From contig NZ_AUGX01000025.1 of assembly GCF_000422885.1 (NCBI RefSeq), forward strand, positions 1 to 64,000: a stretch of 64,000 bases of DNA. Reading direction: 5' to 3'. Positions 38,103-56,132 of the stretch are shown here, piece by piece. The notes below the pieces were generated by a model. That model was given only the letters and a program-made list of their open reading frames with translations. It had not been told where the DNA came from and searched no databases. The number at the start of each line of letters is the position of its first letter. Positions within the stretch are counted from its first letter, which is position 1. The DNA is from Ottowia thiooxydans DSM 14619 (GTDB taxonomy: Bacteria > Pseudomonadota > Gammaproteobacteria > Burkholderiales > Burkholderiaceae_C). Both the position numbers and the translations under genes were made by a program.

Positions 38103-39599
38103 TCAGCGGCGGCTAGCTACATGCCGAACGGAGTCACCAAGGCGGGTAGCTGCGGTCATGAGCAGCGTGCGGTCGTAACCTGTGAAGCATATGTCCAGCC
38201 CTGACCGTCCACCGCCGTCCAGATACATTGGTGAGATGGGTCTGACGACTACCCCGCGGCGTGCTGCTTCGGCGGCAACTTCCCGATCATCGATGTCTTC
38301 TCTCAGATACGCAACGAAGCGCATGCCGCAGTCAGGCGTGGCGATCGTTGCAAAAGGCTCTAGTGCCGAGCGCAAATGCGGCACGAATTCTTCGAGAATG
38401 CTGCTGTAGCGCTGCCGCATCCGACGAATGTGGCTGGTGAAATAGCCTTCCCGCATAAATTCCTCAAGCACGCCGTGATGCGCGGCTGGTGGCCCGCGAT
38501 CGGTCAGAAAGCGTGCGCCGCGAAATGCCTCTACCAAATCGAGTGGCACCACTAGAAATCCAGTCCGGATGCCAGGGAATAAAACTTTGCTGAGTGTGCC
38601 GACGTAGATCACGCGTGACGACTGATCCAAGCCCTGCAACGAAGGAAGGGGCGCTCCCTCGTAACGAAACTCGCTGTCGTAGTCGTCCTCTACGACCCAT
38701 GCATCGGCCTCGTTGGCTGCATGGAGCAACTCGTACCGGCGCTCGATAGACATGACCGCACCAGTGGGATACTGATGCGACGGTGTCACAAAGATAGCCC
38801 TCGGGCGCGGCTCTTTCTCAAGGCCGACTTTGACGCAGAGCCCGCTCTCATCGACGGGCACTGGAACTGTAATGATGTTGGCTGCCCTCAATGCCGTCTG
38901 CACGGCCCTGTACCCGGGCTCCTCGATCCACACGGGGTCCTCGGCATTGAGGAGCACGCGGATGGCCAAATCGATGCCTTGCTGTGCTCCTGATGTCACG
39001 ATGACCTGGTCGGCAGTGCAGTTGACTGATCGGAAGGCGCGCAGATATTCGGCGATCACCTGCCGAAAAGACTCGCGCCCGAAGAGATCGCCATAGCCCA
39101 GTACATCCGTGGCAATCGATTTCGCCTGGCGCACCGTGATCTGACGCCAAGCCTCGATCGTTGGGACGTCTACGGAAACGCGACCTGGGCTGAATGGTCG
39201 ATCGTTAAAGACGGTGCTCTCGCGTAGAACATCTTGATAGCGATAGCCAGCATCCGAAAGCATTCGAAGAGACGCGCTGTCGGAGGCTGCCGCACGCATC
39301 AACCCGCGTCCACCCACCGTTGGAAGATGCTCGGCGATGAATGTGCCAGAGCCCTTTTTTCCTTCGATAAAGCCTTCGGCGAGAAGATTGTCGAATGCCG
39401 TGACGACCGACGTGCGCGAGACCTGCAAGCGCTCCGACAAAATTCTGGATGAGGGAAGTCTGCTGCCCGCGGGAAGGGCGCGGCTGATAATCGCTTGCCT
39501 CAGCTGCAGGTAGATTTGACGAGAAATTTGCGTGGTCGAATCACGGTCAACGGTAATCTCGCGCAGTTCTGCCCACTTGGTTTGGCCTGTTCTCCTCAT
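38103..39599 (-). CDS. MocR/PdxR-type regulator (GntR HTH + aminotransferase domain)
   Basis: This 498-residue fusion has an N-terminal GntR winged HTH (~20-90; ISRQIYLQLRQAIISRALPA, SRTSVVTAFDNLLAEGFIEG) joined to a fold-type I aminotransferase domain from ~120, with the PLP lysine in YVGTLSKVLFPGIRTGF. MocR proteins use PLP or an amino-acid adduct as signal. GGAG lies six bases before the ATG. It follows the peptide ABC genes by 71 bp on the same strand and may be the last gene of that operon; alternatively it controls the cupin/amiE genes. Confidence 0.85.
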   Translation of the reverse strand: MRRTGQTKWAELREITVDRDSTTQISRQIYLQLRQAIISRALPAGSRLPSSRILSERLQVSRTSVVTAFDNLLAEGFIEGKKGSGTFIAEHLPTVGGRGLMRAAASDSASLRMLSDAGYRYQDVLRESTVFNDRPFSPGRVSVDVPTIEAWRQITVRQAKSIATDVLGYGDLFGRESFRQVIAEYLRAFRSVNCTADQVIVTSGAQQGIDLAIRVLLNAEDPVWIEEPGYRAVQTALRAANIITVPVPVDESGLCVKVGLEKEPRPRAIFVTPSHQYPTGAVMSIERRYELLHAANEADAWVVEDDYDSEFRYEGAPLPSLQGLDQSSRVIYVGTLSKVLFPGIRTGFLVVPLDLVEAFRGARFLTDRGPPAAHHGVLEEFMREGYFTSHIRRMRQRYSSILEEFVPHLRSALEPFATIATPDCGMRFVAYLREDIDDREVAAEAARRGVVVRPISPMYLDGGGRSGLDICFTGYDRTLLMTAATRLGDSVRHVASRR

Positions 39600-50552: not shown

Positions 50553-51824
50553 TTACCCTCCCATGTACCTCGCGCGCGGGCGCAGCATGGAGCCGGCATG
50601 ACGTTGCTCGACCGCATGCGCGATCCAGCCCGCGGTACGCCCCACGGTGTTGATCAGTGAAGCGGCGCCTGGCGGAAGCCCGAGGGCGCGGGCCATGATC
50701 ACTAGGGCGCCGAACAGATTGGGATATCGGCCGGTATCGGTACGCAGTGATTCAATGGCCTCAAGCAATCGGCGTCCTGGCCCCGTCACCGAAGTGCAGC
50801 GCGCGGTAACAGCCAACAGGCATTCGGCCCGGGGATCCGTGGCGTAGAGGGGATGACCGAAGCAGGGGGCATCCAGCGAGGACACGAGTGGGGACGGGTC
50901 ACCTGATTGCAGCATGTCTTCGAGATCCGCGGCACCCCCCATCTGCATCGGGCCGCAGTGCGCCATTAGGGCTGCAACTACACAGGCGTATAGATCCACC
51001 CCGGTTGAGGCGCAGATCCGAGCGACAAATGTGGGCGCTGATAACTCGTGGTCTGCACTGAGCACCAGCGCGGTGTTGAGTACATTGATGGCCGAAGGAT
51101 CGTTGCCAGCACCTCCGAGCCCTCGCAACAGGAAGGCCGCGACGTGTTCGCTGTCACCCTGCGGTTCCGGAGCGCGTCGTGGTCCCAGGTAACCCGCGGC
51201 TGCTGCGAAGGCCTGGATCAGGCGTATGCCGGCTGTGCGTCCGAGATAAGCCGTCTCACTAGATGGACGCTCCAGAGAAGTCATCGCCAGCGCCGTGCGC
51301 GCCAGCAGCCGCGTAGCCGATTCGTGACCACGCGATTCAAACCCTGCTGGGCCGGCTAGACCTTCGACACCGAACACTCCCGGCTCCCTAACCCATGCGC
51401 TGTCCCGCAGGCGCGGCAAGCCACCCCAGATTAGTTCGGCTACGTATTCGAAGGACCTGCGCGCTTCCACCAGGTCCAGCGCCAGATGGCCACGGTAGCG
51501 GGGGCCGGCCGGTGTGATGTCGCAGATCCAACTCTGGACGACCGGGTCGCCGTAGCGCAGGCTGTGCGAGATAGTGGGGCCGCCCGCGCCGTCGCCGCCC
51601 CGAGTGCGCAATGCATCGACATCCGCCTTCAGGTACAGGTTGGCCTTCTTCTGTCCCGGTTGCTTGATCGTCCTCACCAGACCGCGGCTGACGTACGTGT
51701 ACAGCGATGCCTTTTTGATACCCAGCACCTTCATGACCTCCTCGCTGCTCAGGTAGTCGACGTCGTTTACACGTCGATCGGGGGACTCGTGGCGGAATGG
51801 CTGCGTTGTGATGGCGGCTGTCAT
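50553..51824 (-). CDS. HTH-citrate synthase fusion, probably a non-catalytic regulator
   Basis: This 423-residue protein has an N-terminal MerR/HTH_17-type DNA-binding domain (~24-75; YLSSEEVMKVLGIKKASLYT, SRGLVRT) joined to a citrate-synthase fold (~90-420). Of the three catalytic citrate-synthase residues, only the His in FGHPLYATDPRAE (His324) remains. The His of the usual GPLHGGAN loop is replaced in GPMQMGGA (291-298), and the Asp of the usual PNVDFYSG loop is replaced in PNLFGALV (368-375). The oxaloacetate-contact ADHEL (His259) is kept. It probably senses an acyl-CoA or oxoacid and binds DNA. It diverges from the Rieske operon. Confidence 0.75.
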   Translation of the reverse strand: MTAAITTQPFRHESPDRRVNDVDYLSSEEVMKVLGIKKASLYTYVSRGLVRTIKQPGQKKANLYLKADVDALRTRGGDGAGGPTISHSLRYGDPVVQSWICDITPAGPRYRGHLALDLVEARRSFEYVAELIWGGLPRLRDSAWVREPGVFGVEGLAGPAGFESRGHESATRLLARTALAMTSLERPSSETAYLGRTAGIRLIQAFAAAAGYLGPRRAPEPQGDSEHVAAFLLRGLGGAGNDPSAINVLNTALVLSADHELSAPTFVARICASTGVDLYACVVAALMAHCGPMQMGGAADLEDMLQSGDPSPLVSSLDAPCFGHPLYATDPRAECLLAVTARCTSVTGPGRRLLEAIESLRTDTGRYPNLFGALVIMARALGLPPGAASLINTVGRTAGWIAHAVEQRHAGSMLRPRARYMGG

Positions 51825-51848
51825 GGTGGGTCTGGAAATGGGAAATGG

Positions 51849-51908
51849 ATCGATTTTAATATCGATCTATACATCGATCAAGTCAATTAATAGAATCAAT
51901 GCATCGAT
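51849..51908. promoter_or_regulatory. Array of four ATCGAT sites in the divergent Rieske/HTH-CS promoter
   Basis: ATCGAT occurs at 51849, 51861, 51873 and 51903, that is at 12-, 12- and 30-bp steps, within an AT-rich stretch between the divergent starts at 51824 and 51929. The third and fourth copies flank AATTAATAGAATCAA-type sequence. The likely ligand is the HTH-citrate-synthase protein or the island LysR. Confidence 0.6.
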
Positions 51909-51928
51909 ACGACCTACCTGGAGATGCA

Positions 51929-53065
51929 ATGACCAACGCCTGCGAACAACTAGCCGTCCTGGCCCCCAAATTCAAGCTGACGCGCGAAAAGCTGCTGCGC
52001 GCCCGCCACCTCCCCGGCCACGTCTACAGCTCGCCGGAGCTGTATGCAATGGAGAAAGAGCGCATCTTCATGACGCACTGGCTGTCGGTCGCGAGGGTCG
52101 AGGAAGTCCCCAACGTGGGCGACTACCTAACGTTCGAAGTGATGAACGAGCCAATCATCATTTCGCGGCCGAATCCCGACGAGATCTCCGTCTGCATGAA
52201 CATGTGCTTGCACCGCGGTGTAGCGGTGGCTAGCGGCTGTGGCCATGCGAAGGATTTCAGCTGCCCTTACCACGCTTGGACGTTCAGCGTGGACGGTAAG
52301 CTGATCGCCGCTCCAGGCATGAAGGAGTCGGAGGTGGACATGAAGAACGCGCGCCTGAAGAAGTTGCAAGTAAAGATCTGGCGCGGTTGGGTGTTCGTGA
52401 ACTTCGCGGAGGACCCGATACCGTTTGAGGAGTACATGGGTGTCATGGAAGACAAACTGTGGTGGTTCCAGTCTGACCAGTGCAAGGTAGCACGCAAGGC
52501 CATAATCGACGTCAAGTGCAACTGGAAATTCTTGGTCGAAAATCTTATCGACATTTATCACGTTGGTGTCATCCACCGCAGCACCTTCGGTGGCTTTGTT
52601 AAGGGCGAGAAGCTGAGGTTTAACCTGGAGGCTAACGGTGCTTGGCACACGCGCTACGAAGCGCGCCCGCACAGCAAGGGTGGTGAGCAGGTGTTTCCTA
52701 CCCTGCCCTGGGCCACTGAAGAGTCGCCCGGCATCGCCTGCAAGGCCGGAATCTATCCGAACATAAATCTCTCCATGCGGGCCGACAGCCTGCGGATGTG
52801 GCATATCTGGCCAATTTCACCCGGCGAGACACGCGTGGTCTGCTACATGCTCTTCCCCGAAGGCGCTTCCTCCATCCCCAACTACGACGCGGAGATGGAG
52901 AAGTACGTGGCATTCGTCAAACAGATCATCGCCGAAGACGCGATGATGGTGGAGTCATTGCAGAACGCGTCTGGCTCGAAGTTTTTCGAGCCGGGGCCCA
53001 TGGCGCCGTTAGAAGAGGCTCTCCACCACATGGAGAACCACTATGTCGACCTGATGACAGCGTGA
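51929..53065 (+). CDS. Rieske non-heme iron oxygenase, alpha subunit
   Basis: The protein has 378 residues from the ATG at 51929, chosen because GGAG lies six bases upstream. The Rieske [2Fe-2S] site is CLHRG...CPYH (Cys93, His95, Cys112, His115). The catalytic domain has NWKFLVENLIDIYHVGVIH, with the bridging Asp208 and iron ligands His211 and His216. It dioxygenates or mono-oxygenates an aromatic ring, or demethylates it. No beta-subunit gene follows; the next genes are ferredoxin and reductase, which suggests an alpha-only oxygenase. Confidence 0.9.
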   Translation: MTNACEQLAVLAPKFKLTREKLLRARHLPGHVYSSPELYAMEKERIFMTHWLSVARVEEVPNVGDYLTFEVMNEPIIISRPNPDEISVCMNMCLHRGVAVASGCGHAKDFSCPYHAWTFSVDGKLIAAPGMKESEVDMKNARLKKLQVKIWRGWVFVNFAEDPIPFEEYMGVMEDKLWWFQSDQCKVARKAIIDVKCNWKFLVENLIDIYHVGVIHRSTFGGFVKGEKLRFNLEANGAWHTRYEARPHSKGGEQVFPTLPWATEESPGIACKAGIYPNINLSMRADSLRMWHIWPISPGETRVVCYMLFPEGASSIPNYDAEMEKYVAFVKQIIAEDAMMVESLQNASGSKFFEPGPMAPLEEALHHMENHYVDLMTA

Positions 53066-53071
53066 ACGGCC

Positions 53072-53449
53072 ATGGAGCACATAAAGAGTCCGGTGCATAC
53101 CGGCGGCGGCACACCACAGGGCTGGGTTGAGGTCGCGCGGTATGACCAATTGGGCGAGGACGAAACGCTAGCCATCGAGCTCGACGGGTGTGAAGTCTGC
53201 GTCTACAACGTCGCCGGGGAGATATTCGCAACCGACAACAGGTGTACCCACGGGGATGCCGACCTATCCGACGGTCTAATCCTGGACGGCTGCATCATCG
53301 AGTGTCCACTGCACGAGGGGACGTTCAATATTCGTACCGGGGAACCGGTGGGACTACCCTGTACCGAAGCGCTGCGCTGTCATGAGGTTCGTGTCGATGC
53401 CAACTCGATCTTCCTGCGTGCGCGCCCGAGCGCAAAGGAACTCGCATGA
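53072..53449 (+). CDS. Rieske ferredoxin
   Basis: This 125-residue protein has the Rieske cluster ligands in CTHGDADLSDG (Cys58, His60) and CPLHEGTF (Cys78, His81), the usual layout of BphF/CarAc-type ferredoxins. It starts six bases after the oxygenase stop and overlaps the reductase by four bases. It carries electrons from the reductase to the oxygenase. Confidence 0.9.
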   Translation: MEHIKSPVHTGGGTPQGWVEVARYDQLGEDETLAIELDGCEVCVYNVAGEIFATDNRCTHGDADLSDGLILDGCIIECPLHEGTFNIRTGEPVGLPCTEALRCHEVRVDANSIFLRARPSAKELA

Positions 53450-54648
53450 GGGTTGTCATTGTCGGTGCTGGCCAGGCAGGAGCCTGGGTGGTGCAACGGC
53501 TTCGTGCAAACGATCCAGATTGTGTTATCACCCTGGTGGGCGAGGAGCCGTGGGCTCCATACGAGAGGCCGCCGCTATCCAAAGCCTCCTTCGTGACCGA
53601 CGACAGTGCGCCGCGCTTCATTTTATCCGTCGAGCAGGCCGCGAAACTGAACGTAAGCTTGCTGCTCGGCACGACCGTCGTTCAAATCGACCGAGCCCGC
53701 AAGTGTGCCGTCACCCGTGGACATGGCGAGCTGGCCTACGACAAACTGGTGCTTGCCACGGGGGGCTCGGCGCGCCGGTTGCAGGTGCCGGGTCACGATC
53801 TTCCAGGAGTCTGCTATCTGCGCACATGGGAGGATGCCACACAGCTGCGCGGGCGCCTGAATCGCGCGCGGACCTTGTTGGTGGTCGGGGGCGGATGGAT
53901 CGGCCTGGAAGTGGCCGCATCCGCTCGCATGCTTGGATGTAACGTCGTGCTCGTCGAGAGCTCTGAGCGGCTCTGCGCGCGCACTGTGCCACCGTGGGTC
54001 TCAGGGTACTTGGCGCGACAGCACGAACTGCGGGGAGTGACCGTCAAGCTATCCTGCGAGGTGAGCAAAATCGAACTCTCTACTGAAGGGGGACTGGTCG
54101 CGCACACGAGTGATGGAGCACTGGACGCCGACCTAATCGCGGTGGGCGTCGGATTGCAACCTAACATCGGCCTCGCAGCGGCCTGCGGTCTCGAGGTTGC
54201 TAATGGTATTCTGGTGGATGCTTTCGGCGGCACCTCCGATCCGGACATCTACGCGTGCGGCGACGTTGCCAATCAGCCACTCGCGACCAGCGGCGAGCGC
54301 ATTCGCATCGAGTCCTATGCCAATGCCATTAATCACGCAGTGACGGTCGCGGATCATCTCAGCGGCCGACCCCAAGATGGCAAGGATGTTCCTTGGTTTT
54401 GGTCCGACCAATTTGACTTCCAGCTCCAGGTCCTCGGCTATCCCAGCGGCGACGGGGAGTGGGTAACACGCGGTGATGAAGGGCAGGGCAAATTCTGCTT
54501 GTTCCAGATCCAGGGGGGTGTGCTCCAGTCCGTGATTTCTGTGAACATGGCCAGAGAATTGAAGCTTGCTAAGCGATGGATGAAGGCCGGCGTCTGCCCG
54601 CCGGCGCATGTCCTTCGCGACTTGACAGTGCGGCTCGACAAGGTTTGA
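53446..54648 (+). CDS. Ferredoxin reductase of the Rieske system (FAD/NADH)
   Basis: This 400-residue flavoprotein has an N-terminal FAD site (VVIVGAGQAGAWVVQRLRAN), a central NAD site (LLVVGGGWIGLEVAASARML) and the late FAD contact DIYACGDVAN, as in BphA4/HcaD reductases. It oxidises NADH and reduces the ferredoxin encoded just upstream. It completes a three-component oxygenase and converges with the LysR gene nine bases later. Confidence 0.9.
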   Translation: MRVVIVGAGQAGAWVVQRLRANDPDCVITLVGEEPWAPYERPPLSKASFVTDDSAPRFILSVEQAAKLNVSLLLGTTVVQIDRARKCAVTRGHGELAYDKLVLATGGSARRLQVPGHDLPGVCYLRTWEDATQLRGRLNRARTLLVVGGGWIGLEVAASARMLGCNVVLVESSERLCARTVPPWVSGYLARQHELRGVTVKLSCEVSKIELSTEGGLVAHTSDGALDADLIAVGVGLQPNIGLAAACGLEVANGILVDAFGGTSDPDIYACGDVANQPLATSGERIRIESYANAINHAVTVADHLSGRPQDGKDVPWFWSDQFDFQLQVLGYPSGDGEWVTRGDEGQGKFCLFQIQGGVLQSVISVNMARELKLAKRWMKAGVCPPAHVLRDLTVRLDKV

Positions 54649-54657
54649 TGTACCTGC

Positions 54658-55563
54658 TCAATCTTCTCGAGCTTCGTTGGTCATCAGCGCGGAAATAGTG
54701 CTTCGTAGCCACTTATTGGCAGGATCGACATGGACACGTCGGTGCCAGCACTGACGGACTGCTGCGCGGGGCAGCTCGAACGGCAAAGGCAGTATGCGCA
54801 GTCCGCCTATGCCGCGCACGGTGTTCTCGGGGACTGTGGCAATCAGCCTCGTTTTGGCGACAACCAGCGCCGCCATGTGGTAATGGACGACAGATAGTCG
54901 GACATTCCTGCTCATGCGCTGCGCAGCAAGGTGCTGCTGGAGCACGGATTCCGCGTTGCCGCCGGTTGCGATTACGTGCTCCAGTGAGAGGAAGCGTTCC
55001 AGCGTGATCGGCTCGTCCGCCAGAGGATGGCCGTGGGCGAGGATGCACACGTAGCGGTCGCTGAAAAGATGCTGCTGGAAGAAGTTCACCTCAGGCAGGG
55101 AGACGTTACCTATGGACAGGTCTAGTGCGCCAGTGCGGAGTGCATCAGGGTACATCGACGTTGCCATCCTTAGGGCGTCGATGCGAATGCCCGGTGCGAC
55201 GGACACGAGATGGTCGGTCAGCACCGGCAGCAGCACCTTTTCGCCGACGTCGGACATGGCGATATTGAAAACGTGCTTGCTAGAGGTGGGGTTGAACCCT
55301 GTGGCGAGTGTCAGGCTTGCTTCCATGAGCCTGAGCGCTTGGTGGATAGGATCAGTCATGGCCAGCGCAAGGGGCGTCGGCTCCATTGCCCGCCCGCCTC
55401 GCACGAACAGGGGGTCGTTGCACTGCTGTCTCAGACGCTGCAATGCATTGCTAATGGATGGCTGCGTCAGCCCGAGGGTGTCTGCGGCGCGGGACACGTT
55501 CCGTTCACGCTCAAGTGCCGCGAACACCCGCAGAAGGTTGAGATCAAAATTCCTGATGTTCAT
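54658..55563 (-). CDS. LysR-family regulator (NahR/LinR-like)
   Basis: The protein has 301 residues from the ATG at 55563 (MNIRNFDLNLLRVFAALERE). The HTH is NVSRAADTLGLTQPSISNAL and the opening NFDLNLLRVFAALE is typical of the NahR/NodD-like aromatic group. It is convergent with the Rieske operon rather than divergent from it, so it may act on the ATCGAT array or on the palindromes at 50.5 kb from a distance. The effector is probably an aromatic acid. Confidence 0.85.
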   Translation of the reverse strand: MNIRNFDLNLLRVFAALERERNVSRAADTLGLTQPSISNALQRLRQQCNDPLFVRGGRAMEPTPLALAMTDPIHQALRLMEASLTLATGFNPTSSKHVFNIAMSDVGEKVLLPVLTDHLVSVAPGIRIDALRMATSMYPDALRTGALDLSIGNVSLPEVNFFQQHLFSDRYVCILAHGHPLADEPITLERFLSLEHVIATGGNAESVLQQHLAAQRMSRNVRLSVVHYHMAALVVAKTRLIATVPENTVRGIGGLRILPLPFELPRAAVRQCWHRRVHVDPANKWLRSTISALMTNEARED

Positions 55564-56132
55564 GCGGTAGGCTGGCTTAAACACGTATCTAGGTGGTCGT
55601 CCATCACCAACAAGCTCAGGAACTCTGGTTGCATATAGCCTAGCTTGCGAGACTAGCGCCTAGTTTTCCTATGACGTCCTGCACTCGCGCTCGCGCATGA
55701 CCATTTTCATGCAAGGTTTTCCGCAGAAAATTTCATCGCTCAATTCGTGACGTTCTTATCTTCGAAAGCTGCTGCTAGCGCATGCGCCGACCTTCGGCGA
55801 GTTGATGACGATCAGGCGACACTTAATCGTAGGACGTGTAGCGAACTAAAAAGTACCAGAGCGGGTTGTGCGGAGAAAGGAAGCGTCACAGCCGCGACTG
55901 CAGACATTCTATCCAGAACGTGTGCAAAGTTCGCATGGCGCGATGCGTTCGAGCCGAGCCCGCGGCCAATTAAAAGTCCGCGGTCTTTGGGCTCTACGGA
56001 ATCGGGCGCAATGCAAATTAACGCCGGTCGAGGCCTTCACCGAACCGAACTGGGGGTTGACCCAGCCGTGTCCTGCGTCGTGGGGGAGCTTGACCTGTCA
56101 TGCGGCTTTCCTCTGCGGAATAACCGGAGGAG
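55564..56132. other. Intergenic region at the right edge of the island, no gene recognised
   Basis: These 569 bp lie between the LysR start and the right direct repeat. Open frames here are short and show no family. The stretch should contain the LysR promoter; from ~55.7 to 56.1 kb it looks like worn sequence without gene structure. It has no visible match to the region left of the other repeat copy. Confidence 0.4.

Follow-up and report, generated by a model that had tools for sequence, protein, structure and literature searches.

A predicted ligand-released repressor with a citrate-synthase fold that has probably lost catalysis, and the wider family to which it belongs

The open reading frame (ORF) on the minus strand at 50553-51824 of the window, the whole 64,000-nucleotide stretch of Ottowia thiooxydans DSM 14619 DNA analysed here, encodes a MerR/Xis-like winged helix-turn-helix (HTH) fused to a citrate-synthase (CS) fold. 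It is likely (probability about 0.75) that the product is not an enzyme but a local repressor, released by a ligand, in which a dead CS domain serves as an oxoacid-like sensor. The domains, the residue losses, the clade, the operator footprint and the genomic context are shown by sequence comparison; DNA binding, repression, oligomeric state and ligand are inferred. In the mechanism proposed, the N-terminal winged HTH would bind an ATCGAT array in the gap to a divergent Rieske oxygenase operon, and the bound regulator would cover promoter-like sites of both genes, most likely repressing both. The CS domain, which keeps its fold and its carboxylate-binding arginines, would most likely bind a dicarboxylate- or oxoacid-like intermediate of an aromatic pathway, and in its ligand-bound form would release the operator. 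The gene and its domains are as follows.

50553..51824, minus strand: HTH-CS gene, proposed regulator (423-aa ORF; Pfam; AlphaFold model)
51594..51755, minus strand: winged HTH, residues 24-77, with recognition helix 38-46 including Thr43 (profiles and models)
50556..51569, minus strand: citrate-synthase fold, residues 86-423 (Pfam and model)

An initial annotation had proposed an N-terminal HTH joined to a CS fold, and this is upheld by Pfam, by profiles run on the isolated domain and by AlphaFold. The Pfam family Citrate_synt covers residues 94-417 (E 2.2e-41). HTH_17 matches residues 24-74, with 26.1 bits on the full-length protein, just below the 27-bit cutoff, and with 30.7 bits on the isolated 66-aa N-terminal domain. 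HTH_17 was found in 44/44 of the relatives scanned, on which ground a chance HTH was rejected, and MerR_1 in 41/44. The AlphaFold model (46 sequences, mean pLDDT 84.7) shows a winged HTH with helix 38-46; a loose linker (77-94) connects it to the CS fold, which superimposes on 1a59 with a Z of 34.5 and an rmsd of 2.9 over 332 residues. The solved structures closest in sequence are methylcitrate and citrate synthases; the curated synthase models are nevertheless not met, the best NCBIfam model scoring 103.7 bits against a cutoff of 332. When the N-terminal domain is modelled alone, Xis, BldC and MerR chains lead with modest scores (Z no higher than 7.9, no Foldseek E below 0.001). The HTH assignment rests more firmly on profiles than on fold comparison.

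The alignment also bears out the earlier claim that His259 and His324 are kept while the catalytic His and Asp are lost, the motifs GPMQMGGA and PNLFGALV occupying the places of the synthase catalytic His and Asp motifs.

50943..50945, minus strand: codon of Q294, which replaces the catalytic His (pig H274) (alignment)
50712..50714, minus strand: codon of F371, which replaces the catalytic Asp (pig D375) (alignment)

The protein retains H259, H324, R332, R396 and R415, which we take to be the equivalents of pig H238, H320, R329, R401 and R421. The two histidines are taken to be oxaloacetate contacts and the three arginines to be carboxylate-binding, with H274 and D375 as the catalytic residues.

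A survey of 399 genomes of the taxonomic family, of a genome collection (80 loci) and of plasmids recovered at least 122 non-identical HTH-CS proteins, some of them near-copies. Eighteen short duplicate loci were left out, as were L131, which has an in-frame stop, from the tree and counts, and L137 from the clade counts. The initial annotation had asked whether both catalytic residues are lost throughout such proteins. They are not: the class is larger than was then supposed, and the majority of those found (87/122) still have the catalytic His, which is absent from the other 35. Among these, 34 form one clade that includes the window protein (SH-aLRT support 99, and 100 after removal of five motif regions), while L137 represents a separate loss outside it. 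The named members of the clade are Burkholderiales, except for one Betaproteobacteria bin without an order name. A later search gave a match at E 1e-90 in 8/399 genomes of the order, the window's own among them, and the His was absent from all nine loci examined from this search, two of which repeat known proteins. When 398 Pseudomonadota genomes were sampled, the HTH-CS profile matched 57 with an E of 1e-60 or lower, and in 53 of the 57 the match extended over the HTH part. One genome, G056, carries four HTH-CS matches (L128, L129, L130 and L131), of which L131 has an in-frame TAG.

Within the 34-row clade the catalytic-His position is occupied by T (10), V (9), L (6), I (5) or Q (4), and the catalytic-Asp position by E (21), A (7), F (4) or S (2). 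The arginine triad is almost invariant (R332 34/34, R396 33/34, R415 33/34), and the histidines equivalent to pig H238 and H320 are kept in 27/34 and 28/34 rows. Conserved columns altered in the clade are N262, S264, H294, G296, G323 and D371, which we take to be active-site columns, together with W236, A285 and I414. Among the residues changed are two of the HEL-NAST motif, Asn and Ser, which 86/87 intact members retain. Because Glu is usual at the catalytic-Asp position of HTH-less CS genes from the same loci (46/57 rows), a change of Asp to Glu does not by itself show a dead enzyme, and loss of the His is therefore the firmer sign in the clade. The window protein has Phe at this position, not Glu. 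Its CS domain is likely to be catalytically dead, an inference from the lost residues, since synthase activity has not been assayed; an active synthase was rejected for this protein on the residue losses and the context. The initial annotation had named an acyl-CoA or an oxoacid as the suggested signal. The retained arginine triad favours a carboxylate or oxoacid ligand, which is probably not oxaloacetate itself because the HEL-NAST Asn and Ser are altered in the clade; the ligand is inferred, and a CoA ester is not excluded.

The divergent placement of the gene against a Rieske oxygenase, as annotated, was confirmed, and a Rieske oxygenase gene likewise lies opposite the HTH-CS gene in each of the three closest relatives.

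51899..53065, plus strand: Rieske oxygenase alpha subunit, divergent, proposed target (ORF and Pfam)
53072..53449, plus strand: Rieske-type ferredoxin (profile matches)
53446..54648, plus strand: ferredoxin reductase (profile matches)

The true start of the alpha subunit may be the ATG at 51929, behind GGAG. Downstream of the HTH-CS gene lie genes for an FAD monooxygenase, a 327-aa ORF, a glyoxalase-fold protein and a fumarylacetoacetase; judged from its sequence alone, the 327-aa ORF, which was not scanned, possibly encodes a TctC receptor. Around the homologue on Acidovorax carolinensis pACP3.2 are Rieske genes, an FAD oxidoreductase, a TctC-like protein and fahA, and pACP4.2 is similar. The Paraburkholderia fungorum locus has all three Rieske-system genes, and at L118 the alpha gene, the sole Rieske gene scanned there, was identified. 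The Rieske/HTH-CS cluster is present in near-identical copies on two Acidovorax carolinensis plasmids (L114 and L188), close to an integrase gene. Two further regulator genes were observed in the window. A LysR-type gene at 54658-55584 (minus strand) lies right behind the Rieske operon and is a possible second regulator of it. A MocR/PdxR-like gene at 38103-39599 (minus strand; NF052282, 400.8 bits, cutoff 320) would be a second regulator of the enzyme-fold type.

Other clade members face genes for TPP enzymes, isochorismatase, SDR, TctC receptors, MFS transporters, FAA hydrolases, a Rieske ferredoxin and a cupin protein, and such varied catabolic neighbours fit a local regulator. By crude gene calling, the upstream ORF of the 34 clade genes is divergent in 22 cases and on the same strand in 10, with no data for two. 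The divergent neighbours comprise 18 that were scanned and the window's own, two taken from record annotation (L114, L115) and one left unscanned (L138); that of L123 has no Pfam match and is probably spurious. Divergent neighbours of intact genes, 55 of 67 having been scanned, are CS genes in 24/55 cases and family III CoA-transferases in 15/55. This provides a hint, and no more than that, that CoA-ester or oxoacid metabolism is the source of the ancestral signal. L046, L061 and L136 are among the loci at which an intact HTH-CS gene is divergent to an HTH-less citrate synthase or a family III CoA-transferase.

The 104-bp gap between the HTH-CS and Rieske genes contains the array that the initial annotation had placed at 51849-51908, which held up with four ATCGAT copies in shuffle tests.

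51847..51874, minus strand: operator core ATGTATAGATCGAT-N5-AATCGATCC (comparison with the three closest relatives and shuffles)
51849..51908, no strand assigned: ATCGAT array, copies at 51849, 51861, 51873 and 51903 (word positions and shuffles)
51858..51886, minus strand: promoter-like TTGACT-17-GATATT, towards the HTH-CS gene, overlapped by the array (consensus match only)
51868..51896, plus strand: promoter-like TATACA-17-TAGAAT, towards the Rieske gene, overlapped by the array (consensus match only)

Four copies in a gap of this length have a P of 5e-5. The copies at 51849, 51861 and 51873 are in 12-bp phase, and two phased pairs occurred in 0/20,000 dinucleotide shuffles. The 7.05-Mb genome contains five occurrences of ATCGAT-N6-ATCGAT; two are in this gap and the other three lie within long ORFs. 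Promoter-like sites overlapping the array on both strands number three against 0.3 expected. Because the array lies across promoter-like sites for the two genes, binding would most likely repress both, a prediction that rests on consensus promoter matches.

Upstream of HTH-CS genes across the family there is a footprint of the form TCAATcTTGAT, 6-7 nt, ATCAAtaT. In a k-mer count AAGATTGA occurs in 54/87 intact upstream regions against 0.5 expected. A matrix trained on the upstream regions of intact genes exceeded all 60 shuffles in 81/87 of these, which are the training set. Outside the training set it did so in 21/33 upstream regions of His-less genes, the remaining 12 not beating their shuffles; L048 was left out of the upstream tests because of too little DNA. 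Loci fetched later gave 30/30 by the same measure, with L168 repeating L127; most are more than 70% identical to a surveyed protein, and the six below 70% all match as well. Over 1.744 Mb the matrix matched at 98 places upstream of the gene, four just behind it and five elsewhere (training sites included; L036_808 left out). Rows with good scores carry the labels Pseudomonadota, Myxococcota, Chloroflexota, Gemmatimonadota and Verrucomicrobiota; these labels may err, several of the operator-scoring rows being metagenome bins. The sole Actinomycetota row, L104, scored below threshold. The idea that the motif serves autoregulation alone was rejected, because in four clade members (L126, L123, L038 and L036) it is located downstream of the gene, at the following gene or ahead of it. 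Of these, L126, L038 and probably L123 are same-strand members; in L038 the next gene, at the motif, encodes a TctC receptor.

The window and its three closest relatives have in common the block ATGTATAGATCGAT-N5-AATCGA, the rest of the gaps being different. The family matrix is weak on the window site (6.4, z 2.6), and on those of the three nearest relatives z is 2.8 to 3.2. The array is likely to be a diverged TCGAT variant of the family operator; there are no binding data. A conserved operator common to the HTH-CS family likewise makes the transcription-factor reading a likely one, with DNA binding inferred by computation.

In most rows the sequence of the recognition helix is LYAYVSRG. It is LYTYVSRG in the window protein, in L114, L115, L118, L116, L119, L120, L034 and L043, and in a group of six rows (L040, L042, L044, L047, L050 and L055), of which five are Myxococcaceae. 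When the matrix carried no preference at the bases under test, TCGAT/ATCGA half-sites were found in 12/12 Thr rows and 3/90 other rows with a scored operator (Fisher 3e-13, a value that ignores relatedness). Below the threshold of 12, and so uncounted, were 20/122 rows, including the Thr rows L114 (10.9), L043 and L050. Two Thr members were found later, L180 with TCGAT half-sites and L181 without a scored operator. On the tree there are three residue changes, giving 2-3 independent Ala/Thr pairs, all concordant and too few for significance. The pattern might reflect direct reading of the base by the recognition helix, a possibility that depends on a small phylogenetic sample.

Several observations may weaken the main reading. 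The window site scores poorly, 12/33 His-less upstream regions miss, and L043, L181 and L050 lack a scored operator; there are only 2-3 independent Ala/Thr switches, and 10/34 clade genes lie on the same strand as the preceding gene. All of the evidence is computational, with no experiment. It is also possible that the LysR gene behind the Rieske operon is the operon's regulator instead. A stronger form of this objection, that the array is read by that LysR protein or by an AphS/BphS-type GntR regulator and that HTH-CS is a bystander, can draw on the position of the LysR gene and on the similarity of part of the array to the AphS/BphS motif AAATmTCGAkATTT (PMC6449761). However, the motif accompanies HTH-CS genes in a wide variety of neighbourhoods and under five or more phylum labels, and the base it carries varies with an HTH residue, which makes this very unlikely. 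Nor is the gene plausibly a decaying pseudogene. Its catalytic residues are lost and L131, a related copy in another genome, has an in-frame stop, but the 34 clade rows used have open frames, a near-invariant HTH, and retained arginines and context, and decay is all but excluded.

It could be supposed instead that the protein is a trigger enzyme, which binds DNA and still catalyses some CS-like reaction. The CS fold and arginine triad are retained, and the 87/122 HTH-CS proteins that keep the catalytic His share the operator, so that bifunctional members are plausible. The window protein, though, is without both catalytic residues, and the altered conserved columns concentrate in the active site; for this protein the idea is very unlikely. 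Activation or DNA looping, in place of simple repression, would accord with the three half-sites of the operator, and MerR relatives are often activators. Against this, the array overlaps the promoter-like sites of both genes, and such a mode of action is considered unlikely. The reading initially proposed and preferred here, in which a former CS fold has become part of a transcription factor, is supported computationally by the footprint, the link between helix residue and base, the divergent catabolic neighbours and the clade-wide loss of the His, with DNA binding inferred.

A bolder reading, towards which the balance tips only slightly, is that HTH-CS proteins are an undescribed transcription-factor family, which occurs under five or more phylum labels, has a single ancestral operator and uses a CS fold as sensor. 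Catalytically intact members, whose divergent neighbour is often an HTH-less CS or a CoA-transferase gene, may be bifunctional, and one Burkholderiales branch would have lost catalysis in a single event and have spread to numerous catabolic operons. Were this so, the family would provide a natural series from enzyme to pure sensor. The operator supplies directly testable targets. HTH-CS-type genes are labelled citrate synthase in plasmid records, and if such genes are regulators these labels would mislead metabolic models. The initial suggestion of a possible new sensor class is supported: the class proved wider than first thought, and no CS-based regulator was found in the open-access PMC literature searched, which excludes subscription papers and most preprints. 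The family is apparently undescribed; enzyme-derived regulators as such are already known.

The HTH and the sensor each have familiar relatives. With MerR, Xis and BldC domains the protein has in common the profiles HTH_17 and MerR_1, the fold comparison giving modest scores (Z up to 7.9); unlike them, its HTH is fused to a CS fold, and the family operator is TCAAT-C-TTGAT with a third half-site. With methylcitrate and citrate synthases (3o8j, 6s6f, 1a59) it has the fold and arginine triad in common, but these enzymes possess both catalytic residues and lack an HTH of this kind, the reverse of the window protein. MocR/GabR/PdxR proteins are a large family in which an HTH is joined to an enzyme-fold sensor domain; theirs are a GntR-type HTH and an aminotransferase fold. 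PspR, a PEP-synthase-like repressor of haloarchaea whose DNA binding has been shown experimentally (PMC10948481), is likewise an enzyme-derived protein turned repressor, although it differs in fold and in domain of life.

The closest parallel is with BzdR and BoxR, repressors of benzoate pathways that combine an HTH with a former shikimate-kinase domain and respond to benzoyl-CoA (PMC3602430; PMC6449761). In these, as is predicted here, an HTH is coupled to an enzyme domain without activity that senses a pathway compound and controls aromatic catabolism. Their HTH is of the XRE type and their sensor a shikimate-kinase fold, in contrast to the MerR/Xis-like HTH and CS fold of the window protein, for which no ligand has been identified. 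The protein is likely, by analogy, to work like BzdR, but its sensor domain is not a shikimate kinase and it lies outside the BzdR family. The step from enzyme to regulator has been reconstructed for BzdR with chimeras (PMC3602430); with intact and dead HTH-CS members side by side, it is open to study on natural proteins.
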